A stretch of DNA of 64,000 bases from Gammaproteobacteria bacterium (GTDB taxonomy: Bacteria; Pseudomonadota; Gammaproteobacteria; Eutrophobiales; Eutrophobiaceae), in assembly GCA_028279365.1 (NCBI GenBank), contig JANQNX010000006.1, forward strand, positions 1 to 64,000, written 5' to 3'. The notes under the pieces were generated by a model that did not search any database, was not told the DNA's origin, and was given only the letters and a program-made list of their open reading frames with translations. The first letter of the stretch is position 1; each line of letters begins with the position of its first letter. Below, piece by piece: positions 11,384-22,898 of the stretch. Made by a program: the position numbers and the translations under genes.

Positions 11384-11475
11384 CCTTCTCTCCCGCCACA
11401 ACTAATAGTAGCTAAATCAATAATTAAACCTGGCTTTTGTACTTCAGTTGCCGAGCTTTTTGCCGTTATAAGATC

Positions 11476-14400
11476 ATGCCCTCTATCGACGAAAAATCAG
11501 CACCCAGCAGCGAACTGTATCTTATTGTTTCGACTGGCATTGCCTATTTTATCAGCGCCAAAATTGGCTGGTACCTGAGTGCTCCACCCGATCATGTATC
11601 GGTATTGTGGCCACCCAATGCGATCATGATCGCGGCCCTGTTATTGACCGATCCACGGCGCTGGTGGCGTTGGCTGCTAGCCATGTCAGTCGCGTATTTA
11701 AGCTCGGCTTACCTGAACAACAATCCTTTACCAAGAACGCTGATCTTTTACAGTGCCAATCTTCTGGAAGTGCTCATTGCAGCAGGTTCATTAACGCTAT
11801 TGTTGGAAGACAAGATCAATTTCAAAAGATTAAACCATACGATTGCCTTCATCATCTTTGCCGTTTTATTTGCCCCGTTTATTTCAGCCTTTATTTCATC
11901 AACCATTACGGTTTACCAGACAGACTTGGTTTTTAAAGAAGTCTGGCAAGTATGGTTTTTGGGCGATGCGCTCGGCATTCTGGTAATCACACCGCTTATC
12001 ATCTGCGCGATCCCGAATGGGCTGCTGAAGATAAAAGCACTCACTCGCGCCAGGCGCCTGGAGTTTGCGCTATTACTGCTGTCCGTCGGGGTCACCTACT
12101 TTTTTGTCATTAACAATGATATTTCAAGTACCTATGCGGTGACCTTGCTGATTTATAGCTCCATGCCTTTTTTGCTCTGGGCTGCAATCCGCTTTGGCCC
12201 GGGTGGCGTATTCAGCATTGCATTTTTTATTTCTCTGAAAGCCATATTTTTTGCCATACACGGTTTCGGTCCTTTCTCGGACTTCCCGGGCATAGAAAAC
12301 ATCACCTATATACAAATCTCCATGTTCGCGGATTCTGTACCATTTATTTTAATCGCCTCAACACTGGAAGAACTGAAAAAAACAGAAAGCTTGTCTGAAC
12401 AGCAACGATCATATTATTTGAACCTGATGAACAATCTGAATTTTCCGGCTTTTGTGATCGATCAGAATCATCGCGTTGTCATCTGGAACAAGGCCTGTGA
12501 AACCTTGACCGGCTTATCGGCAGATGAAATGGAGGGAACCGATCAGCATTGGCGAGGATTTTATAAACACTATCGTCCCTGCCTGGCAGATATTGTATTG
12601 AAAAAAGATCTTGATGCGGTCGAAACCTTGTATGAAAAATATTTCACCCATGCCTTTCATCCACAAGGCAAACGTTCACAAAACTGGTGTGACATACCTA
12701 AAGGTGAACGATTATTTCTGGATATCGATGCGAGCCCAATCCTGGATGACACAGGTAATATCGTTGCCGTCATCGAAGTGCTAAAAGACATTACGGTGCA
12801 AAAACAGGCCGAAGAAAAACTCGGCATCGCCTCCAGAGCCATCGAGGCAAGCTCATCCAGCGTCATCGTGACAGACATCAATGGAACCATTGAACATGTG
12901 AATCCAGCATTCATAAATACAACAGGCTATGCATTCGAAGAGATACTGGGTGAGTCCGTCACAATACTGAAAGCAGAAACGGAAAACGAGCAGCGTTATG
13001 ACGAGTTATGGCGAGCGGTAATAAAAGGTAAGCCATGGAATGGAGAAATATCAAACAGAAAAAAAGATGGCACAACCTATATTGCACGTTGTGCCATCTC
13101 ACCAGTGACCGATGACACAGACAAAATTACGCATGTCATTAGTATCCAGGAAGACATTACCCATGAACATAAACTGACTGAGCAAATTAATTACCATGCA
13201 CGGCATGATATGCTGACCGGTTTGTTCAATCGTTATTCATTTGAAGAAAAAACCGACCGTTTATTACATAAAGTCAAACATTCAGATCGAAATCATGCCT
13301 TTTGTTATCTTGATCTCGACCAATTCAAGGTGATTAATGATACTTGTGGTCACTCTGCTGGAGATGAACTGTTAAAACAACTTTGCCAACTGCTGAATTC
13401 GAAAATCAGGAAAAGCGATACATTTTCAAGACTCGGCGGCGATGAATTTGGTTTGTTAATGGAGGACTGTTCGATTGAACAGGCACATCGGGTAGCGAAT
13501 GAATTACTGGAAGTGGTGCAAGCCTATCAATTTGCCTGGGAAGACCATATTTTCAGGGTCGGTGTCAGTATCGGTCTGGTTGAAATTAATAATACTATCA
13601 GGGATGTCTCTGAGTTACTTGGCCGCGCCGACGCCGCCTGTTATATGGCAAAGCAACAAGGAAGAAACCGAATTCATTTCTACCATAATGATGACGCCGA
13701 GATCGCAAACCATCATACCGAGATGCGTTGGGTTAATCGTATTCAACATGCCCTGGAAGAGGATCGCTTTTGTTTGTATGCACAACCGATAATCAGCCTG
13801 AAAGAAAACAAGCCACCGTCGCATTATGAAATATTAATCCGGATGATCGATGAAGAAGGTAAGGCTATCCCGCCAGGTGGGTTTTTGCCGGCGGCAGAGC
13901 GCTATAAATTAAGCACGCATATTGATCGCTGGGTAGTAAAGTCAGTATTTGAATTTATCTCGGAAAATCCTGACTTCATGCAAACCACCAGTTTTTTGGC
14001 GGTCAACCTTTCCGGCTACTCCCTGATTGATGAGCCCTTTCTGGAATATATCCTCAGGATCTCAAATGAATATCAGATTAATCATCGACAAATCTGTTTT
14101 GAGATCACTGAAACAGCGATCATTAGTCACCTTGCCAAAGCGAATGTATTTGTTAATCGTTTACGTGAACTCGGCTGTCGATTCGCGCTAGACGATTTTG
14201 GCAGCGGCGTCTCCTCATACGGTTATCTTAAGAATCTTAAAGTCGATTTTCTAAAAATTGATGGTATGTTTGTGAAAGGCATCGCAACCGACGATATCGA
14301 CTATGCCATGGTTAAATCAATTAATGAGATTGGTAAAGTGATAGGTATGCAAACTATCGCTGAGTTCGTTGAAAACGATGCAATTCGATCCTGTTTGAAA

Positions 14401-14493
14401 AAAATCGGTGTCGATTACGCCCAAGGTTACGGTATCGAAAAACCGATGCCGATCAAAGAAGTTAAGTTACAACGCCTGCAACAAGCCGTTTAA
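11476..14493 (+). CDS. MASE1-PAS-PAS-GGDEF-EAL cyclic-di-GMP signalling protein
   Basis: This encodes 1005 residues. An N-terminal MASE1 sensor (about eight helices, residues ~10-290; VSVLWPPNAIM and WFLGDALGILVITP are hallmarks) is followed by two PAS domains (~319-442 and ~452-568). Then come a GGDEF domain with intact GGDEF at 654-658, and an EAL domain (~752-998) whose signature is EIL (785-787) rather than EAL. The EAL domain keeps DDFGSG, LKIDGMFV and QGYGIEKP, so phosphodiesterase activity is likely. I use ATG 11476; an in-frame TTG at 11437 adds an implausible Cys-rich leader. It converges with the VWA operon, with 10 bp between stop codons. Confidence 0.9.
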   Translation: MPSIDEKSAPSSELYLIVSTGIAYFISAKIGWYLSAPPDHVSVLWPPNAIMIAALLLTDPRRWWRWLLAMSVAYLSSAYLNNNPLPRTLIFYSANLLEVLIAAGSLTLLLEDKINFKRLNHTIAFIIFAVLFAPFISAFISSTITVYQTDLVFKEVWQVWFLGDALGILVITPLIICAIPNGLLKIKALTRARRLEFALLLLSVGVTYFFVINNDISSTYAVTLLIYSSMPFLLWAAIRFGPGGVFSIAFFISLKAIFFAIHGFGPFSDFPGIENITYIQISMFADSVPFILIASTLEELKKTESLSEQQRSYYLNLMNNLNFPAFVIDQNHRVVIWNKACETLTGLSADEMEGTDQHWRGFYKHYRPCLADIVLKKDLDAVETLYEKYFTHAFHPQGKRSQNWCDIPKGERLFLDIDASPILDDTGNIVAVIEVLKDITVQKQAEEKLGIASRAIEASSSSVIVTDINGTIEHVNPAFINTTGYAFEEILGESVTILKAETENEQRYDELWRAVIKGKPWNGEISNRKKDGTTYIARCAISPVTDDTDKITHVISIQEDITHEHKLTEQINYHARHDMLTGLFNRYSFEEKTDRLLHKVKHSDRNHAFCYLDLDQFKVINDTCGHSAGDELLKQLCQLLNSKIRKSDTFSRLGGDEFGLLMEDCSIEQAHRVANELLEVVQAYQFAWEDHIFRVGVSIGLVEINNTIRDVSELLGRADAACYMAKQQGRNRIHFYHNDDAEIANHHTEMRWVNRIQHALEEDRFCLYAQPIISLKENKPPSHYEILIRMIDEEGKAIPPGGFLPAAERYKLSTHIDRWVVKSVFEFISENPDFMQTTSFLAVNLSGYSLIDEPFLEYILRISNEYQINHRQICFEITETAIISHLAKANVFVNRLRELGCRFALDDFGSGVSSYGYLKNLKVDFLKIDGMFVKGIATDDIDYAMVKSINEIGKVIGMQTIAEFVENDAIRSCLKKIGVDYAQGYGIEKPMPIKEVKLQRLQQAV

Positions 14494-14503
14494 TAAACTA
14501 CGT

Positions 14504-15454
14504 TTATAATGATAGCGCCAGAAAGGTGCCGCCATTCTGTTTGGTCAATTCCCGCATTAATATACCAAAACGATCCGTTGTCCCCGGCGAGATAAACCCA
14601 ACACCGTGTATCTTGGCTAATCTTTTACCGTCGATTGATGAACTGTTGTTTGCGGTAATACTTGCAATCACCGGATCATAGGAAGAGCCGGTATAGTCGT
14701 CACCAAATACATAAATAGAAGTAGTAATATTCGGCCTAGCATATTTTCTTAACGCAACGTCTATACCTTCGACCGGGCTACTGTTTGATATATCACCCCA
14801 CTTTTCAAATACACTAATCACGCTTTTCCTTCGCCCGGGCGTATCGGGGATCCATTTCCCTTCATAGCCGGAGATAAGAGGCTTGCCCATGTCATTCAAT
14901 ATCTGAAACCCCTCTACTTCAGGGTGTATGTTCAATACATTAATAATCTCGCTCGAAACACGACGCCATATCTGCTGCATGCTACCGGATGTGTCGACGA
15001 TAAAAATAACATAGTCGCTATCGACCGGTATGCCCCCCACCTCTTCATCCCGTTCCTTGTTTGTCGGTTTGGGGGTGGCGGTCGAGGCTTGCTTTAATGT
15101 CGACTCGACCAGGGCCAGCCCTTCTAAATCATCAGCCAGTGTTTCCTGTTGTTGTCGCTGTTGTTGTAATTGGCTTTGTAGTTGCGCGGTGGTTGTTTCA
15201 ATTTGTTGTTGCTCACTGGCCACCTGCTCAGCAGCAGCAGACTGGCTTGCGATACGCTGTTGCAATTCATTGATACTGCTCTCCAATATGATTAGGGTAT
15301 TGAGTAAATCACTGATCTGTTCTTTTCCGGCAATGGAAATATCGTCACCGGTCTTTGAAATCAACACCAGCATCACCACCGCGCCAAAACCACAGGAAAT
15401 GATGTCCAGAAAGGATAAGTTAAAAATATCAAACTCGCGTTGACGTTTTTTCAT
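14504..15454 (-). CDS. membrane-anchored coiled-coil VWA protein (second of pair)
   Basis: This encodes 316 residues: a short basic cytosolic tail (MKKRQREFD), then FNLSFLDIISCGFGAVV, a single membrane segment with an Asp near its N-terminal end. A Gln-rich coiled coil follows (~35-115), then a periplasmic VWA domain starting YVIFIVDTSGSM, which contains the DxSxS metal-ion (MIDAS) motif. VFGDDYTG is a candidate distal MIDAS Asp. The layout resembles ExbD/TolR/MotB stator B subunits, with VWA in place of their periplasmic domain. The ATG at 15452-15454 overlaps the preceding stop as ATGA, so translation is coupled to the first VWA gene. Last gene of the operon; function unknown. Confidence 0.85.
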   Translation of the reverse strand: MKKRQREFDIFNLSFLDIISCGFGAVVMLVLISKTGDDISIAGKEQISDLLNTLIILESSINELQQRIASQSAAAEQVASEQQQIETTTAQLQSQLQQQRQQQETLADDLEGLALVESTLKQASTATPKPTNKERDEEVGGIPVDSDYVIFIVDTSGSMQQIWRRVSSEIINVLNIHPEVEGFQILNDMGKPLISGYEGKWIPDTPGRRKSVISVFEKWGDISNSSPVEGIDVALRKYARPNITTSIYVFGDDYTGSSYDPVIASITANNSSSIDGKRLAKIHGVGFISPGTTDRFGILMRELTKQNGGTFLALSL

Positions 15455-16509
15455 GGCCAATTACTCGCCGGGCTAATCAACAAGCCTCCGGTTGCCGCAG
15501 TCCATGACCAATATTCATTAATCGCATCCGGATCGCCTTCTATCGGTAATAGCACCACATCCACTTTCATTCCACCCGGTGCACTTTCCGTCAAGGTTTG
15601 ACGAAATAACTTAACCCGACACTCGCCGGAGATAGTGTTTGAACGACCAAGTAAAGAACCACAGCTGGCAAATGGATTAAGGCTTTTATAACGCGATTCA
15701 CCCTTGGTAGGTAAACCATCGGTGATCACATATAAATTCGATGGCGAAACTTTTCTTGCTGCTTCCAGACCTAGCTGTAGATTAGTTGCGCCTTCAGGGA
15801 CAAGCTTATTCATATCTGACAGGATGACCTTGATCGATGTCGCATCTTTGGCTTTGGTCCAGCCGGCTCCTAATACCGCTGCCGTTTCGTTATAAGTAAT
15901 CACGACTACTTCACTATCAGCAGGCAATCGTGCCAGTAACCATTCAAGTGTTTTTTTTGTCCTTACCCACTTACTGGCCTGCTGTTTTTCCTTCGTTGAA
16001 CTACTCTTGGTTTTAATAATATCGATCAGCTTTTCATTGGTCATGGAAGCACTGCTGTCGAGCAGAATCGCTATCTTTGCGCCTTCGACCTTGAGTCCCA
16101 ACAAGTAATCTTCTTCATTAACCTGCTGTGTCTCAATCACATCTTCTTTCTTATTAATCTTGATACCTTTGATATCAGACTTGGCTTGCTCAATTTGCTG
16201 CGCCGTTTTCGCGATATCTGCGCTTTGGCTTTCCAGTTCAGCCCGAGCGTCACGGAGTCTCTTTAATAGATCGGCTTTGCTTATCTGTTTATCCTGTAAC
16301 GCCTGCTCAATCTCACGTAGCGTTTGTTCAGATTGTTGCTTGGCGATTTCAAGACTTTCAATGTCCTGTTTCAGGTTTTCAGTTTCTATAGAAGAATCAT
16401 CAACATTATATTTAACCAACATGAATACCAACACCACCGCGCCCAGGCCACAGGACATAATATCCAGAAAAGCCAGATTAAAGCCTTCTGATTTTTTTCG
16501 TGTTAACAA
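15451..16509 (-). CDS. membrane-anchored coiled-coil VWA protein (first of pair)
   Basis: This encodes 352 residues: basic tail MLTRKKSEG, then FNLAFLDIMSCGLGAVVLV (one membrane helix with an Asp at its start), a long heptad-type coiled coil (~40-115), and a VWA domain. ILLDSSASM gives DxSxS, GATNL supplies the MIDAS Thr and VITDGLP the MIDAS Asp, so metal-dependent ligand binding is likely intact. The start is TTG 16507-16509, with AGG from the preceding gene's end about 8 nt upstream; no ATG fits. It lies 4 bp after the proton-channel gene. Together with its sister it could form the B subunit of that channel, which is inference. Confidence 0.85.
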   Translation of the reverse strand: MLTRKKSEGFNLAFLDIMSCGLGAVVLVFMLVKYNVDDSSIETENLKQDIESLEIAKQQSEQTLREIEQALQDKQISKADLLKRLRDARAELESQSADIAKTAQQIEQAKSDIKGIKINKKEDVIETQQVNEEDYLLGLKVEGAKIAILLDSSASMTNEKLIDIIKTKSSSTKEKQQASKWVRTKKTLEWLLARLPADSEVVVITYNETAAVLGAGWTKAKDATSIKVILSDMNKLVPEGATNLQLGLEAARKVSPSNLYVITDGLPTKGESRYKSLNPFASCGSLLGRSNTISGECRVKLFRQTLTESAPGGMKVDVVLLPIEGDPDAINEYWSWTAATGGLLISPASNWP

Positions 16510-16513
16510 AACA

Positions 16514-17254
16514 CTACCTGATTCTGTTTAGCAGATATTTTTCGCAATACGCCTGTGTATCAAGAATCTGGCTATCCTGTAAACGTTGTAACTGATGGAA
16601 CAGAAACATTAAAAAGATACTGATCAGCAATGCGACCAGCGTCGAGTTAAAAGCAACGCCTAGACTGTTAGTCATACCACCAATATCACCGGCCAGCGCG
16701 CGATCGGCTTGGGACAAGGCCTGGCCGATACCGCGCACGGTACCGATAAAGCCAATCGATGGGATAGCCCAGATTAAATAACGAATCATCGTATTCTCGG
16801 AATCCTGTCGCACGGCCAATGCGTCCAGATTACTTTCAATCGCATCTGATAGGTTTTGTACATTACGCGTAGCGGCATAGCGCCATAATGAAGAACGTAA
16901 TGTTTGCACCAGTGGTGATGTCAGACAGTCCTTCGGAATTTGTTTATCCAATTTTCCGATAATGGCATCGACATCAAACTCGTCACTGTCTTCAATCAGG
17001 TCCACAGAAAACAAATACTTTGTTTTTAAAATTTGTCGATAGCTACTGAAGATTAAAAACGCACCCCATAACATCAGGATGAAACATATCTCCTGTTCAT
17101 AATCTTTCAGAATAACAACAATCTCTCTCGGCGCAGTCTGGCCTTCTGCCTCAGCGGTTTCGATTAACTGGTTTGCCTCAGGCCGGATATAGCCGATATA
17201 AACCATGTGAACCAGGCAAACGGAAAACACTAGCGCAATAAAACTTTTAATCAT
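16514..17254 (-). CDS. MotA/TolQ/ExbB-family proton-channel protein
   Basis: This encodes 246 residues. One N-terminal membrane segment (~1-22) is followed by a second at ~50-70, a cytosolic helical stretch, and then two helices around residues 160-220. The family signature is clear: WAIPSIGFIGTVRGIGQAL (P-x-x-G-x-x-GTV-x-G) followed by GVAFNSTLVALLISIFLM. ExbB/TolQ/MotA subunits assemble as pentamers around a dimer of B subunits and convert proton flow into mechanical work. There is no exbD/tolR/motB gene beside it; the two VWA proteins downstream are the only B-subunit candidates. It starts 4 bp after the 51-residue gene. Confidence 0.88.
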   Translation of the reverse strand: MIKSFIALVFSVCLVHMVYIGYIRPEANQLIETAEAEGQTAPREIVVILKDYEQEICFILMLWGAFLIFSSYRQILKTKYLFSVDLIEDSDEFDVDAIIGKLDKQIPKDCLTSPLVQTLRSSLWRYAATRNVQNLSDAIESNLDALAVRQDSENTMIRYLIWAIPSIGFIGTVRGIGQALSQADRALAGDIGGMTNSLGVAFNSTLVALLISIFLMFLFHQLQRLQDSQILDTQAYCEKYLLNRIR

Positions 17255-17258
17255 GATG

Positions 17259-17414
17259 TTATATATCCACTGGAAATGACGCAGGAGAATTCAGACTCAC
17301 TGTAGGCTTACCGGCATAGACTTTATGCACTATGGCAAAACTGATGGTCAGTAGCAATAGCACTAAACCTGCATAGATAACTTTTTTATTAATAGTACTG
17401 ACTGTCTTTATCAT
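17259..17414 (-). CDS. 51-residue single-pass membrane protein of the VWA/proton-channel operon
   Basis: This short gene fills the gap between the SUMF1/PEGA gene and the proton-channel gene exactly. Its ATG overlaps the upstream stop as TGATG, and its TAA lies 4 bp before the next ATG, which strongly supports translation. The product begins MIKTVSTINKKV, has one hydrophobic helix of about 18 residues (YAGLVLLLLTISFAIV), then a short extracytoplasmic tail (KPTVSLNSPASFPVDI). The positive-inside rule places the C-terminus in the periplasm. I do not recognise a family. It could be an accessory or assembly subunit of the neighbouring channel. Confidence 0.75.
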   Translation of the reverse strand: MIKTVSTINKKVIYAGLVLLLLTISFAIVHKVYAGKPTVSLNSPASFPVDI

Positions 17415-19423
17415 CACTGCCCTCCGTAAACATAACGTCCAATTCTGAAGCCAACATCATCACGTCCACCGCTCAGGCCTTCCCTGAAAGCGGGCCTTAG
17501 CTCGGTTAATGAACCGGAACGCCAGTTTGCGCCCTTTATAACATGCAAACTCCCATTCGCTGAACCTAACTGCTGAGTAAACGTTTCACCTTTGGCGGGT
17601 GGAACAATCGAATAACTATCATGTACCCATTCACTGACATTACCTGCCTGATCAAACAAGCCTGATGGCTCCTTCAGAAACTGCCCGACATCCGCAACCG
17701 CAGCATGCTTATCATTATAGTTTGATACATAAGTCTTGACTGTGCCTTTTGCCGATTCGTCAGCAATATTAGCGGCATTTTTTGGTATAACCGTTTCATC
17801 ACCCCAGACGAATCGCGTTTGTTTCGGTTTAACCGCCTTTCTTGCCAACCACTCCCATTCGGCTTCTGTTAATAAACGATAACCATCCGCTTGCGGATTC
17901 ACACCGGTAAGTCGATTATTAACAATGCGGTAAACATCTTCTCGCCCTTCCTGCTGACTTAACCAGTTACAATACTTGGCGGCATCTATCCAGCTAACCG
18001 ATGTCACAGGTTTGTTGGCATCGCCCTGCTTATTCGGATCAAACTTTTGGTATTCAGCATAGCTGACTTCACGTAGGCCGGCATAGAATGGCTTATTGAT
18101 TGACACCTGTTTGACGAACTCATTAACGCGCTGACCCGGCTCACTTCTCGGTGCACCCATGCTGAACGTCTCGTTAGGTCTAAACAACAGTAAACTTCCA
18201 CCCGCTTTATTTTTATATTGTCGCGGCGCCTCAGCCAGGCGGGCAAGTTTCTCGGGAACCAGACTCACCGACACTTGCCTGGCTTTACTTGAACTTGGCA
18301 CAACCGTTTTACTCACTGTCCTAAAACCCGACCTGGAAAATGTGACTCTTTGTTCAACCGCCAACAAGGATAATTCTTGCGGGGTCGACCCATAAGCTTT
18401 TCCATTTATCTCAATATCGGCATCAGGCGTGGATGTGATATTCACCTTTCCGAATTCTTTTTCTAACTCAAATGTTAAATTCACATTATCAGTAGCAGAC
18501 AACTTCAATGTTTTTGATTGTGAAAAATAACCCGGTTTCGAATAAGTCAACGTATGTGTTACGTCGGCATCCAGCTTAAGCTGCTTGGTTTCATTAACGC
18601 TAATGCCATTAACCGTCAACTTGCCGCCAGCCGGCGCCAACTGCAACGATGCCCTGGCTTTTTTTCGTTCTAATCGATAATTTCTTTCCAGTACGGGTTT
18701 AAGCCGGGTAATTTCCACTTGTTCGGTAATCGTTTCAAAATTATCCATACTGATGACAATTTGATGATAGCCACCCGTAACCGTGTGTTGCAGTGGACTG
18801 CTATGCGCTGGCTTCTCATCAATCATTATCATGGCACCGCTGGGGATGGTATTGATAGATAATTCGCCATTAATCGGAACAAGTTGCACGGTTTGTTCTA
18901 GCGTTTCACCTCGACCAAGATTAATAGCTAAAGTTTTTTCCTGGTAATGCGGATGATCAATCGAAATGGCATACTTGCCCGCTGCTAGTTCTGTCTCAAG
19001 CTTGTCTGCTATTGTGTTCAACTGGTCGGCGATGTTCCATTGTGATTTACCGTCGTTTAGACCTGTGTCCAAAAATACTTTTGCAGGCAAGGGTTGTAAT
19101 TCAACCTCTACAACATTGCCAAAATCATTTTTGTTTAACTGTTGTTGCTTTGTATAAAACCCTTCTGCGCTGGCTGACACTACCGGTGTTGTTGAGACAG
19201 AGTAAAGCGTATCGCCGGTTAACACGGCAATGCCTGACTTTAACTGCAACTCAGCCGTTTCTTCAGCATCCGCTGGCACGACCGCAATGCGTGTTCCTCT
19301 CGATACCAGCATCACCGTTAACACGATTAGCACACCGATGATGAATAATAGCGACATACCAATCAGCACATAGCGCTGTTTTTTTTTGGCGTCTTTTATC
19401 TTTTGATCAAATTGGCTCATCAC
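17414..19423 (-). CDS. membrane-anchored PEGA-repeat protein with SUMF1/FGE-like C-terminal domain
   Basis: This encodes 669 residues: a Lys-rich cytosolic N-terminus, a membrane helix (~18-42), a periplasmic beta-rich region with at least three PEGA-type repeats (~185-390; phrases GAMIMIDEKP, KLTVNGISV, DIEINGKAYGSTP), and a SUMF1 (formylglycine-generating-enzyme-like) domain (~400-665; MGAPRSEPGQ, RLLTEAEWEWLARKA, GNVSEWVHD, VGFRIGRY). The catalytic Cys pair of true FGEs is absent: the equivalent stretch reads KGANWRSGSLTELRPAFR and the domain has only one Cys, elsewhere. A binding or structural role is therefore likelier than sulfatase activation. The start is GTG 19421 or ATG 19418; it overlaps the preceding gene by about 17 bp. 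Confidence 0.85.
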   Translation of the reverse strand: MMSQFDQKIKDAKKKQRYVLIGMSLLFIIGVLIVLTVMLVSRGTRIAVVPADAEETAELQLKSGIAVLTGDTLYSVSTTPVVSASAEGFYTKQQQLNKNDFGNVVEVELQPLPAKVFLDTGLNDGKSQWNIADQLNTIADKLETELAAGKYAISIDHPHYQEKTLAINLGRGETLEQTVQLVPINGELSINTIPSGAMIMIDEKPAHSSPLQHTVTGGYHQIVISMDNFETITEQVEITRLKPVLERNYRLERKKARASLQLAPAGGKLTVNGISVNETKQLKLDADVTHTLTYSKPGYFSQSKTLKLSATDNVNLTFELEKEFGKVNITSTPDADIEINGKAYGSTPQELSLLAVEQRVTFSRSGFRTVSKTVVPSSSKARQVSVSLVPEKLARLAEAPRQYKNKAGGSLLLFRPNETFSMGAPRSEPGQRVNEFVKQVSINKPFYAGLREVSYAEYQKFDPNKQGDANKPVTSVSWIDAAKYCNWLSQQEGREDVYRIVNNRLTGVNPQADGYRLLTEAEWEWLARKAVKPKQTRFVWGDETVIPKNAANIADESAKGTVKTYVSNYNDKHAAVADVGQFLKEPSGLFDQAGNVSEWVHDSYSIVPPAKGETFTQQLGSANGSLHVIKGANWRSGSLTELRPAFREGLSGGRDDVGFRIGRYVYGGQ

Positions 19424-20876
19424 AAATCACAGTCAGACTAATTGTTGCCTTATCATAAGGAACAAGCACATCGATGAGTTTTGATTTGTAACCCTTACGT
19501 TTACCCTCGAAGGTATAATAACCTGGTAGCAATTGAATTGTTTTCATTTCCGTCACACCGACAATACCCACACCACGTACCAACACATTAGTTTGGTTAT
19601 CTGAACGCACATCAACTGAAACTTTATTATTCATTTTTTCTAACAACACAGCCAATTCGTCCGCTTGCCGGCTGAGGCTAGGGCTATCCGAACGAAAACG
19701 CTCGGCTTTGCTTATCACAGCATCCGCGTTAGCCGATGATTGCTGGCTGGATAGACGATAAGGGTTGTTGATATGTTGTGATAACAACTGATTCAGTTCG
19801 AGAATCGTATTTGTTTTTTCGAGCGACTGTTGAATACTTTTATCATTCGGATCTTCGCGTAACGCCAGCGTTAAATATTGTTTTGATTCTGTCCACTGAT
19901 CGCTTGCCATCGCGGACTGCGCACTTTGTAAATGTTTTTCCAGTCGTTGTTTGCGTTCGAGCTCGGCGATGCTTGAGCTTATATCGCTTAATTCTGATCG
20001 ATTTGAATAGATACGTTGTGCTGACTCCAACCGCTTCCTAGCTTTACCTGCATCACCTTTTTTAACTGCCTGGTAGGCTTGGGCAACAAGTGATTCATAG
20101 CGCTGATTGTTAATGATTGTGGTTAATTCCTGTTTACGTTCAACCAGACCCTCGCGTTCCGGGGCCAACTCGATCAGCTGAGTTAAATAATCCCGTTCTT
20201 GTCGATAATTATTTTCGATCCTGGCCGCCTGAATATTTTCCAATAACGGTAACAGTGCGGGTAACTGTTGAGTCTTGTTTGCTAACTCAACCGCTTCTAC
20301 CGATTCCCTATCCAGCATTAATGCCTGGTCTATCTGTAACTTAGCTGTTTGATAATCATCATTGGCATAAGCCGACTCTGCCTTTGAAAACGCAGTAGCA
20401 AATGCATTTTGACTATCGTTAATCAGTGCTGTTGCCAGTGTGCTGGCCTGTTGCAATTGTGCCAATGCATCCTGATAGTTTGCCTGACTGAATGCAGATA
20501 ACGCCGCCTGTTTCAGTCGCTGCAATTCATTACCTCGCACCGCATCCCATTTGTTTAATTCGATCTTTGCCAACTGCGGTTGTAATTGGTTCTCATATTC
20601 ACTGATAAGTGTGATGTACTGCTGTCGTAGCGCTTCATCAGATGAGTTTGTCTCGGCCGGTATGGTTTCTGCTAAGGAATGATTGTTGGGCTTAGTTTGA
20701 CCAGTGTCGGATAATTCGGTCAATATCTCGTCTTTATCCACACCGCCGGTATAACAGCAGGAAGTAAAGATAAAAGCGCCAGCAATGATAACAACGACGG
20801 TAATAAACCCCAGTGAGAGTTTAAGCAGTTGTTTTCTTCTAAGCGCTTTGGCCTCAGCGAGCTGTTGTTCGAGCAT
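19407..20876 (-). CDS. membrane-anchored helical-repeat protein with C-terminal PEGA-like domain
   Basis: This encodes 489 residues. A basic N-terminus (LRRKQLLK) leads into a membrane helix (~19-38) ending next to SCCYTGG. A long Gln/Ala-rich alpha-helical region follows (~75-380) with TPR-like repeats (phrases ALAQLQQAS, DDYQTAKLQIDQAL, KKGDAGKARKRLESA). The C-terminal ~70 residues are a PEGA-like beta domain (LLPGYYTFEGKRKGYKSKLIDV). The topology places the repeats in the periplasm, probably as a scaffold. It shares the anchor-plus-PEGA plan with the next gene, which it overlaps. The ribosome-binding site is weak, and it starts 17 bp after the lipoprotein gene, so translation may be coupled. 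Confidence 0.75.
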   Translation of the reverse strand: MLEQQLAEAKALRRKQLLKLSLGFITVVVIIAGAFIFTSCCYTGGVDKDEILTELSDTGQTKPNNHSLAETIPAETNSSDEALRQQYITLISEYENQLQPQLAKIELNKWDAVRGNELQRLKQAALSAFSQANYQDALAQLQQASTLATALINDSQNAFATAFSKAESAYANDDYQTAKLQIDQALMLDRESVEAVELANKTQQLPALLPLLENIQAARIENNYRQERDYLTQLIELAPEREGLVERKQELTTIINNQRYESLVAQAYQAVKKGDAGKARKRLESAQRIYSNRSELSDISSSIAELERKQRLEKHLQSAQSAMASDQWTESKQYLTLALREDPNDKSIQQSLEKTNTILELNQLLSQHINNPYRLSSQQSSANADAVISKAERFRSDSPSLSRQADELAVLLEKMNNKVSVDVRSDNQTNVLVRGVGIVGVTEMKTIQLLPGYYTFEGKRKGYKSKLIDVLVPYDKATISLTVICDEPI

Positions 20877-20893
20877 AATGGCAACAGTATAAA

Positions 20894-22162
20894 TTAAAGT
20901 ACTGTGCTTGGTGTCGCCTCTTGCTCATAAATGCGTCTTAAGAATTCCCGCCACTGGCCAAATTGCTCCTGAATATTGCCGGTCAGCTCAACCGTTTCTT
21001 CTTCAAACGAAACAACCTGTGGTGCCATCTCCAGATTAATCGATTCACCCAATTCATCAAGCGCTTCTTTGTGAAGCTTGGCTTCTTCCTGTGATTTGAA
21101 GCTGCCGGAAAACAGCCAGGCACTGGCCAGACCGCCCGCTATCGCTGCCGTAGCCAGGGTTGAAGAGGCTGCACCATCACCTTGTTCGGATTTATTAATC
21201 GAAGTCACACCTGCTGCTATCGCCAGTCCAACCAGCAAAGCGCCGCCCAGTGCCTTCATGACACCTTCTCGTCGCGCTTCTTTACGTAATTGTTTCTCGG
21301 TAAAGCTGGCTTCCTGCCATTTTAGATAACTGTCTTCCATGCTGGACGAGAAAGACGCATAGTTTTGTTGCAAACTGTCGACAAACAACTGCTCTCTGAC
21401 CCGAATTGATGAGACACGCTGTAACATCGGATCGTTATCACTGGGTTTACTGACCAGCTTGATATAATTACTTTGCGTATCCATATACTCGCTGAACGCC
21501 GCTTCATTAAAACTGGCACCAAATCGTAAATCGGCAATGTATTTCAGGGTATCCAATTCTGCCGCATCGCGCTTTGATAATAATTCGACGATATCATTAC
21601 TGGCCTCCTCAAACACAGGGTCGTAGGGATCCTGACCTTCCTTACGTATGTTTTTATAAAAGCCTTCACTAACTTCATGTTTAAAATTACGATCAAGCCA
21701 GTCTTTACCGCTGATATCGACAACGTTAATGTTGATTTTGACATCCTCACCATCCGACTCAAGGATTTTACCGAGAATATAAAGGTCGCCCGAAGCCGTG
21801 TTATCAGGCGTTACTCTGACTGCACCAAAGGCATTGGTCTTATCCAGCGCCTCTTTGAGTTTATAGGCAAAGCGGTTTGCTTCCGCACGTCTTAATTCAG
21901 GCCAGATGCCCTCTTCTTCATAGTTTTCAGCATTCTCGGATAAACCCGGATCAAATACTGGAATCACCACATCCAGTTTAGGCTTGTTGTCTAACGCCAC
22001 CGCAACCGTTGTTTCACTTTCAATTTCTGATGAAAGTTGAGGTCCCGCCTTAACGATTCCGTTTTGACCACTGTTGGCAACACAGCCTACCAATACATGG
22101 GTATAAATCAGTATGCAGGCAATAACTTTATTTACTGTCTCAAATCCATTATTCATTTTCAT
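20894..22162 (-). CDS. outer-membrane-type lipoprotein of the VWA/proton-channel operon, unknown family
   Basis: This encodes 422 residues. The signal peptide ends in the lipobox LVGC (about residue 27), and Val-Ala rather than Asp follows the Cys, compatible with sorting to the outer membrane. The first half (~55-190) is an alpha/beta domain (VVIPVFDPG, ANRFAYKLKEAL, LYILGKILESDGEDV) reminiscent of periplasmic scaffold folds that I cannot assign. The second half has a helical stretch and two Gly/Ala-rich hydrophobic segments (ALGGALLVGLAIAAGV and LATAAIAGGLASAWLF) separated by a short loop, which could insert in a membrane. It overlaps the first gene of the operon by 14 bp. Confidence 0.75.
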   Translation of the reverse strand: MKMNNGFETVNKVIACILIYTHVLVGCVANSGQNGIVKAGPQLSSEIESETTVAVALDNKPKLDVVIPVFDPGLSENAENYEEEGIWPELRRAEANRFAYKLKEALDKTNAFGAVRVTPDNTASGDLYILGKILESDGEDVKININVVDISGKDWLDRNFKHEVSEGFYKNIRKEGQDPYDPVFEEASNDIVELLSKRDAAELDTLKYIADLRFGASFNEAAFSEYMDTQSNYIKLVSKPSDNDPMLQRVSSIRVREQLFVDSLQQNYASFSSSMEDSYLKWQEASFTEKQLRKEARREGVMKALGGALLVGLAIAAGVTSINKSEQGDGAASSTLATAAIAGGLASAWLFSGSFKSQEEAKLHKEALDELGESINLEMAPQVVSFEEETVELTGNIQEQFGQWREFLRRIYEQEATPSTVL

Positions 22163-22898
22163 CGTTCGTCGTTTCTTTTGCTATCGTATTGTCATTACTT
22201 GAGGCTTCCTGTTTAACCGGAAGTCCCTTATATTTTCTGTACTCGTTCCATAATTTTTCTTTCTTTACCGGATCTTTTTCAATCTCCGCAGCTAACCGGA
22301 TCTGTGCCGCCACGGCATCGTCATTATTTGCTGGGGGAATATCTTGCGGTAACGCACCACTACCGGCGCTGCTCGAGTTAATTGCCAGTCCTTCAGCGTC
22401 AGAAGAGTTTGAGCTTGTGGTTTCAGCAGCATCAATCTCAGCTGACGGCAAATTCTCAGGCGCTTCAGTACCAGACAACAAGGCACTCGCCTGAGAATTG
22501 ATGTTTCCCGGACCATTGCCCTGTGATCCAACCGTATTGGTACCGGCCGTATTCTCACCGGTTTCTGCTCCTTCTGATTCACCACCCGCAACGTCGGCAC
22601 CAGCAACAGAAGAACCACCGATAGTATTAGCTGAGGAGGATGCACCGGAAGAGTTACGTATTTCATTCGACAAATTGCACAGTTCAAACCGGTTTACCGA
22701 TTCAAAAAAGGCGCGGTTCATGGCTTCAAGACGCTCAGCACGCGTCATATCAGGCCGGTCGACATAATCGATGGTAATATCCGAGCAATCAATAGTCGAA
22801 CCCAAACTCTGTCCAGCATGAACCATTGCACTGAAGCTTAACATTGTCAGTGTCAATCCAGTCACGAGCAAAGCCGAGTAATGGTTTAGTATTTTCAA
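22149..22898 (-). CDS. secreted low-complexity protein, first gene of the VWA/proton-channel operon
   Basis: This encodes 249 residues. A signal peptide ends near MVHAGQ. A short folded part (~28-85) has two cysteines (STIDCSDI and FELCNLS) that may pair. A Gly/Ser/Ala/Asn/Glu-rich disordered middle (~85-205) and a charged helical end (DPVKKEKLWNEYRKYKGLP) follow. The start appears to be TTG 22896-22898 with GAGAAAGAA upstream; no ATG is available before the signal peptide. Its end overlaps the lipoprotein start. A good -10 box at 22936-22941 makes this the first gene of the eight-gene unit. No family recognised. Confidence 0.65.
   Translation of the reverse strand: MKILNHYSALLVTGLTLTMLSFSAMVHAGQSLGSTIDCSDITIDYVDRPDMTRAERLEAMNRAFFESVNRFELCNLSNEIRNSSGASSSANTIGGSSVAGADVAGGESEGAETGENTAGTNTVGSQGNGPGNINSQASALLSGTEAPENLPSAEIDAAETTSSNSSDAEGLAINSSSAGSGALPQDIPPANNDDAVAAQIRLAAEIEKDPVKKEKLWNEYRKYKGLPVKQEASSNDNTIAKETTNDENE

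Follow-up and report, generated by a model that had tools for sequence, protein, structure and literature searches.

The closest described relatives of the operon that we analyze here are tolQ-like genes that occur, without tolR, beside heterologous pairs of vWA genes, as set out in part of a recent paper (PMC12204202; Mol Biol Evol 2025, msaf138). In the portion of that paper that concerns these genes, the helices of the vWA proteins carry the Asp of the proton site, an AF3 (AlphaFold 3) model places them inside the pentamer, and the threonine ring of the channel pore is described (PMC12204202). The motor idea for a core of a tolQ-like protein and paired helix-vWA proteins is thus not new, that is, it was published as a prediction in 2025; in the open-licence literature that we searched (without preprints), no other paper was judged to describe this core. 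Related work covers the GldK ring, with GldJ as a SUMF1 homologue that lacks an active site (PMC9127263), and the diversity of non-flagellar A subunits (PMC12505986).

The operon is located in a 64,000-nucleotide stretch of a gammaproteobacterial genome (the window; contig JANQNX010000006.1, positions 1 to 64,000) and encodes a channel subunit (Q), two vWA proteins (V1 and V2), a lipoprotein (LP), two putative scaffold proteins (TP and PS), a putative secreted protein (SE), and a microprotein (s). A first-pass annotation, made from the letters of the window alone, had read these genes as an ion-driven machine that spans the envelope. We find that its observation was right and that its motor reading was largely right and is partly in print; the conserved C-terminal tail of s, the fold of LP, and the extended gene set described below are absent from it.

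A conserved eight-gene operon

The eight-gene operon is a real unit. We compared the locus in the window with 20 of the 22 other loci from near genomes and with 80 from a scan with a V2 profile (the best 80 of 246); removal of two duplicates from these 101 loci left 99, and the 21 with less than 8.8 kb upstream of V2 were excluded from the order count. In 66 of the remaining 78 loci the complete set occurs in the order found in the window, SE-LP-TP-PS-s-Q-V1-V2 in the direction of transcription; this rules out chance, and the recurrence of the gene order across genomes, which the first-pass annotation had proposed for checking, holds. Q, V1, V2, and PS are present in all 78 loci, LP in 77, TP in 76, s in 73 (by a strict pattern), and SE in 69. 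In the 12 incomplete loci, SE was missed in nine, s in five (again by the strict pattern), TP in two, and LP in one, with several loci missing more than one gene; in one locus (L065), TP, LP, and SE are on the opposite strand.

Of 58 genomes near that of the window (its own included), 23 contain V1, and in each of these a weaker second match, V2, adjoins it; a first contig scan for relatives with V1 alone found none. Among 369 genomes sampled from the class, V2 was detected in 27, LP in 26, and both in 23, with at most five first-look candidates scored per genome. Four of the seven exceptions (G346, G351, G134, and G324) resemble contig ends. A fifth (G220, locus L129), a genome of one contig, retains TP and LP within 19.9 kb only as broken remnants, and V2 has no match genome-wide at E 1e-20; judged from these remnants, the operon appears to have decayed as a whole unit. 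The other two are true variants in which LP is undetectable: Q is located after V2 in G348, and the 19.9 kb stretch of G248 yielded no Q.

Within the near genomes and the best 80 of 246, the gammaproteobacterial hosts include Methylophaga, Glaciecola, Microbulbifer, Halieaceae, and Porticoccaceae, and the alphaproteobacterial hosts include Sneathiella, Aestuariispira, and Denitrobaculum; further loci are found in Desulfobacterota, a Mariprofundus, a Kiritimatiellia bin, and an Acidobacteria bin. Because many of the records are metagenome bins, odd taxonomic placements may be binning errors.

In the window, the coordinates of the open reading frames (ORFs) agree with the eight minus-strand genes that had been annotated at 14504..22898 (Table 1). 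Four of the junctions are overlaps (14, 17, 4, and 10 bp), and the spacing at the other three is 17, 4, and 4 bp, so the largest junction is 17 bp, as had been noted. The TATAAT annotated as a −10 box before the first gene is present upstream of SE as a putative promoter element; however, a promoter scan found no hexamer pair ahead of SE, and the matches across the region (8 vs 16.3 in shuffles) are fewer than expected.

As a control for the conservation of the operon, the unlabelled ORFs in the flanks were clustered; the commonest family occurs in 14 of the 99 loci and the next in 11. We rejected a link to a flanking pathway because unlabelled flank families recur in no more than 14 of the 99 loci.

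Table 1. Genes of the operon in the window, listed in the order of transcription.
Gene	Assigned or predicted features	Position	Strand	Basis
SE	Secreted protein; low-complexity middle; conserved C-terminal segment (~184-224)	22149..22898	-	ORF, alignment; signal peptide by eye
LP	Lipoprotein; predicted FlgT/PelC/CsgG/TolB-N type N-terminal domain; helical hairpin	20894..22162	-	Lipobox, model
TP	N-terminal membrane helix; predicted TPR rod (78-415) and transthyretin-like beta head (419-482)	19407..20876	-	Model
PS	Membrane helix at the N-terminus (by eye); PEGA repeats; SUMF1/FGE fold at the C-terminus, catalytic Cys pair absent	17414..19423	-	
s	Microprotein of 51/52 residues; signal-peptide-like N-terminus; C-terminal tail SLNSPASFPVDI	17259..17417	-	
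Q	TolQ/ExbB/MotA-family channel subunit	16514..17254	-	Pfam; T172 and T205 aligned with own TolQ and ExbB
V1	Membrane helix with Asp16 (FLDIMSCGLGA); coiled coil; vWA with DxSxS/T242/D264; C-terminal WP	15451..16509	-	
V2	Membrane helix with Asp19 (FLDIISCGFGA); coiled coil; divergent vWA with DTSGS/D254	14504..15460	-	

By eye, the commonest flank family resembles the M48 peptidase of the extended form (see below), and an EAL-like family is found in three of the 99 flanks. In the window, a 1018-residue ORF (11437-14493) faces the operon in convergent orientation, at a distance of 10 bp from the stop of V2; it has multiple transmembrane segments and PAS, GGDEF, and EAL domains, again by eye.

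The channel and its probable paired vWA partners

The alignments used here and below include six that contain hand-picked subsets of the loci (16, 19, 17, 32, 15, and 12 rows) and large ones for column conservation in V1, V2, and SE, which include duplicates and from which some members were lost to length filters. Q matches the Pfam family MotA_ExbB (E 1.7e-13; 50.9 bits vs a cut-off of 22.9), as expected from its annotation as a MotA/TolQ/ExbB homologue. All five aligned rows, among them the genome's own TolQ (L001) and ExbB (L002), share the threonines T172 and T205; we take these columns to be those of the TolQ/ExbB pore threonines. From its sequence, Q is a TolQ/ExbB-type channel.

V1 and V2 both start with a mostly positively charged N-terminus that is followed by a membrane helix, F-x-L-x-F-L-D-I-x-S-C-G-x-G-A. 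The Asp is the sole letter of its column in 96 rows of V1 and 100 rows of V2; both helices carry this Asp without SHLS. Channels of the MotA type require a B subunit whose membrane helix bears an acidic residue. Because an Asp is invariant in the membrane helix of each, V1 and V2 are likely the B subunits of Q, with the partner thus probably present twice; no Pfam match to ExbD is found among the eight proteins of the window. The retained threonines of Q, the invariant Asp residues of V1 and V2, and the recurrence of the eight-gene unit all support the ion-driven motor of the first-pass annotation.

The PADLOC profile for ZorB, which is of the MotB type, covers residues 6-109 of V1 (E 1.1e-4), and there is a weak match to ZorA (1.1e-3); with a MotA/MotB-type core, these matches could point to an anti-phage motor like Zorya. 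We rejected Zorya-type defence, which we regard as highly improbable, because an effector match is absent (none of the eight proteins credibly matches a nuclease or helicase in Pfam or PADLOC) and no V2 relative was found in collections of plasmids, phages, and viral contigs. In addition, V1 and V2 have no OmpA-like domain, the order of the genes is fixed, and the flank families are mostly housekeeping by eye.

Two vWA proteins had been annotated. V1 is identified as such by Pfam (VWA_2, E 2.4e-9), and its metal-site residues D151, S153, S155, and D264 are invariant, with T242 conserved in at least 90%. For V2, the Pfam match is far under the cut-off in the protein of the window (E 0.64), and VWA_2 matches four of 16 members of the family at E<=0.01; however, D156, S158, S160, S227, and D254 of the metal site are invariant, and the V2 profile aligns to V1 over 270 columns with 99.6% probability. 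We assign the vWA domain of V2 because its DxSxS motif is intact and because of this profile alignment; which Ser replaces the Thr of the metal ion-dependent adhesion site (MIDAS) we infer. V1 ends with Trp-Pro (15454-15459 in the window) in every aligned row that has letters at these positions, a second fixed C-terminus in the operon beside that of s. When the PDB was searched with profiles of Q, V1, V2, and LP, nothing meaningful was matched; the few entries listed resemble chance or coiled coil.

The same core could instead be a regulated ion channel, or a sensor of metals or envelope stress, in which Q, V1, and V2 perform no mechanical work. The eight genes of the compact form include no match in Pfam to a transducer of the TolA/TonB type, and simple binding could be all that the vWA heads do; nevertheless, we consider a channel or sensor without mechanical work quite unlikely.

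The genome of the window (3.1 Mb) contains twelve matches to MotA_ExbB, some of them in ORFs that span 587 and 673 residues. One locus (L001; C7:299185-302571) is a canonical-looking ybgC-tolQ-tolR-tolA operon, and at another (L002; C1:167400-170759) an exbB-exbD pair immediately follows a ComEC-like gene (gene names by eye in both). The genome has therefore retained its own ybgC-tolQRA operon, and the vWA motor is no replacement for Tol.

Lipoprotein, putative scaffold proteins, and SE

LP has a lipobox (LVGC) with its Cys at position 27, and the Cys is invariant across 19 aligned rows. Among the matches listed, the model of its N-terminal domain resembles chains of FlgT, PelC, and the curli complex at 10-14% identity, and the domain is predicted from this model to have the FlgT/PelC/CsgG/TolB-N fold; LP differs from FlgT, PelC, and CsgG by a long helical hairpin and a glycine-rich hydrophobic stretch. 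Neither LP nor SE has a match in Pfam. Both also lack a match in NCBIfam for SE, whose columns P184..K224 show conservation of at least 90% across 64 members of the alignment.

Two anchored PEGA proteins had been annotated, and this is correct for one of them. PS matches PEGA in four stretches (E 2.1e-28) as well as FGE-sulfatase (E 3e-32; 112.7 bits vs a cut-off of 23.3). TP of the window has no Pfam match to PEGA, and PEGA is not among the matches listed (25 of 32 families) for the 32 members of the TP alignment; the model of TP, judged by the matches listed for it, predicts a TPR rod with a transthyretin-like head.

SUMF1/FGE enzymes have a catalytic cysteine pair near the C-terminus. In 86 PS proteins, the stretch of ~75 residues that precedes the last GFR-like motif contains no Cys in 78, one in seven, and three in one; we rejected an enzymatic SUMF1 role for PS because the catalytic pair is missing, and PS is predicted to be inactive because the cysteines are lost.

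The best NCBIfam match of PS is GldK, at 69.8 bits against a cut-off of 350, and on this score membership of the type IX secretion system (T9SS) was rejected. PorK is among the PDB matches of PS. With the SUMF1 fold of PS and the likeness of LP to FlgT, PelC, and CsgG, these matches are compatible with a machine for secretion or display at the outer membrane, in the manner of T9SS or curli, with s or SE as its cargo. However, no outer-membrane beta-barrel family is matched among the eight proteins (Pfam, NCBIfam), and the single s of each locus (L120 excepted), with its near-constant tail, resembles a component of the machine more than it does a varied cargo; we therefore consider a role in secretion or display unlikely.

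A microprotein with a fixed C-terminal tail

The interval between PS and Q contains a short ORF that ends with F-P-x-D-I or a near variant in all 88 cases. In 82 of these the tail fits [FYL]-P-x-D-I, and the other six were identified by eye (FPVDM, IPYDI, MPRDI, FPVDI, LHADI, and MPSDI); the second-last residue is Asp in 88 of 88, the last is Ile in 87, and Pro is present in 87. When a looser tail pattern was applied to the 18,925 ORFs of 25-199 residues in all loci, 90 matched, and three of these are outside the PS-Q position. Each locus has one s, except L120, which has an overlapping second ORF.

The gene for a 51-residue single-pass protein in the first-pass annotation is confirmed; its product is better described as an apparently exported microprotein than as a plain single-pass protein. 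Among the examples picked by pattern, a strongly hydrophobic N-terminal segment is found in 33 of 33 from compact loci and 49 of 51 from extended loci, and all 84 have a pattern of small residues as before a signal-peptidase site (by a permissive rule, applied without a control). After the hydrophobic segment, compact s has a median of 23 residues, typically like S-L-N-S-P-V-S-F-P-V-D-I, and extended s a median of 66, often ending S-E-D-L-S-V-S-F-P-V-D-I. From these sequences, export of s is predicted, with or without cleavage, which would place its C-terminus in the periplasm. The extreme end is conserved although the remainder of the sequence varies, so this end is probably read by some partner. 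A search with s in a large protein collection recovered only s itself and is uninformative, since the method requires a few shared words; a literature search for the FPVDI motif turned up no related description.

Which partner reads the tail? By analogy with integrin ligands such as LDV, an Asp beside a C-terminal aliphatic residue would suit the metal site of a vWA domain, and we offer as a guess, possible and no firmer than that, that the tail is gripped by the vWA heads. Covariation cannot probe such a contact, since both the MIDAS residues and the Asp of the tail are almost invariant. For the other positions, we used 84 tails chosen by a pattern that demands P, D, and I (~60 effective sequences, with shared ancestry). 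The top 60 columns that covary with tail position −3 include 20 from LP (of 374) and 13 from SE (of 177), where ~9 and ~4 are expected; for position −5, the numbers are 14 and 11.

This over-representation of LP and SE suggests a second answer, that is, that s is a docking or gating peptide for LP and SE on the outer-membrane side and no vWA ligand, with the motor pulling LP by another contact. The resemblance of LP to chains of the curli complex, PelC, and FlgT is in its favor: short peptides dock in CsgG-type rings, and TolB and TonB boxes are bound. However, the covariation is weak given the number and ancestry of the sequences, the SE alignments are gappy, and at position −6 LP is only at expectation and V2 is above it. 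We consider docking of s to LP or SE possible but less likely than not.

Compact and extended forms

Among the 91 loci with Q, V1, and V2, 57 have an extra protein of ~440 residues, HF, between Q and V1; we call these the extended form. An FHA domain was found in one of two HF proteins scanned (E 5e-12); by eye the N-terminal part is actin/Hsp70-like, and the Pfam and PDB searches support only the FHA part. Many extended loci have lipoprotein-like proteins after V2, and some also have an M48 peptidase; in several, a TPR protein that carries a C-terminal TonB domain is encoded upstream (TonB_C E 7e-6 in the one scanned, L031 3347-4651).

The operon in the window has the compact form, and the extras of the extended form are not beside it. 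HF was not found genome-wide in the window's genome or in two others (G001 and G029); the same search recovers HF in four of four extended control genomes. In a midpoint-rooted tree of Q+V1+V2 (91 of the 99 loci), 30 of the 34 compact loci, including that of the window, form one clade with support 1.0, and the remaining four are nested within the extended side. Both forms occur in the family of the window's host, and a single genus even contains both (compact in G029, extended in G004), a pattern suggestive of replacement or horizontal exchange.

Proposed mechanism

We favor, as somewhat probable, a proton-driven motor of 5:1:1 stoichiometry whose vWA arm works on a lipoprotein assembly of the outer membrane. 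Five Q subunits would surround the helices of V1 and V2, passage of protons through the Asp/Thr site would shift these helices, and the coiled coils would transmit the motion across the periplasm to the vWA heads, which would grip an acidic partner via their metal site. LP at the outer membrane, with PS and TP as scaffolds anchored in the inner membrane, would be the part that is worked on, so that the machine would carry force from the inner to the outer membrane. Its task would likely be mechanical, like that of Tol-Pal or the T9SS motor, with the outer membrane or the assembly of this membrane as the target.

For the gripped partner, the most economical candidate would be the s tail, whose second-last Asp is constant. 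In the fullest version, which we put forward tentatively and which would be a new kind of envelope motor, proton flow would turn a heterodimeric arm; this arm would hold the carboxylate of the s tail via a metal ion and would so work a ring of LP that is framed by scaffolds of the PEGA/SUMF1 and TPR types. Where the extended form is present, the FHA protein would read or control the machine from the cytoplasm. The tail (peptide SLNSPVSFPVDI) is a sharp experimental handle, that is, a short motif with a free C-terminus.

Comparison with known systems

In the open-licence literature (preprints were outside its scope), we found no description of the full operon, and an unseen description is possible; with respect to an exact match to a described system, which the first-pass annotation had raised, the core of TolQ-like protein and paired vWA proteins is in print and the full operon was not found in print. 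The TolQ-like/TPH-vWA family, as far as the relevant part of PMC12204202 describes it, shares with the operon a tolQ-like gene, a heterologous vWA pair, the helix Asp, and the lack of tolR/exbD. Section 8 of that paper names motor and vWA genes only, and the terms PEGA, SUMF1, FGE, and 'small protein' do not occur in its main text; the likeness to the Idiomarina proteins of that paper is one of description. We found no precedent for the eight-gene composition, the compact and extended forms, the folds predicted here for LP and TP, or s with its fixed tail.

Other machines share parts of this plan. Among the eight proteins, Pfam gives no match to TolR, TolA, TolB, or Pal of Tol-Pal. Zorya (ZorAB) and the operon have a MotA/MotB-type core in common; however, the OmpA-like domain of ZorB and the effectors ZorC/D/E are not matched among the eight (Pfam, PADLOC). 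In T9SS and gliding (GldKLMN), an inner-membrane proton motor is likewise combined with SUMF1-fold and other envelope proteins; however, PS is anchored by a membrane helix and is not lipidated (by eye), and no match to GldL, GldM, or GldN is listed for the eight proteins in NCBIfam, a library that includes these models. The likeness to gliding and T9SS motors in the first-pass annotation is one of kind only.

The likely inner-membrane, periplasmic, and outer-membrane parts of the machine are now listed. If the proposed mechanism is true, the operon, which has representatives in Alphaproteobacteria, Gammaproteobacteria, and bins assigned to other phyla, would encode a further complete ion-driven trans-envelope machine that would take its place beside flagella, Tol-Pal, Ton, T9SS, and Zorya.

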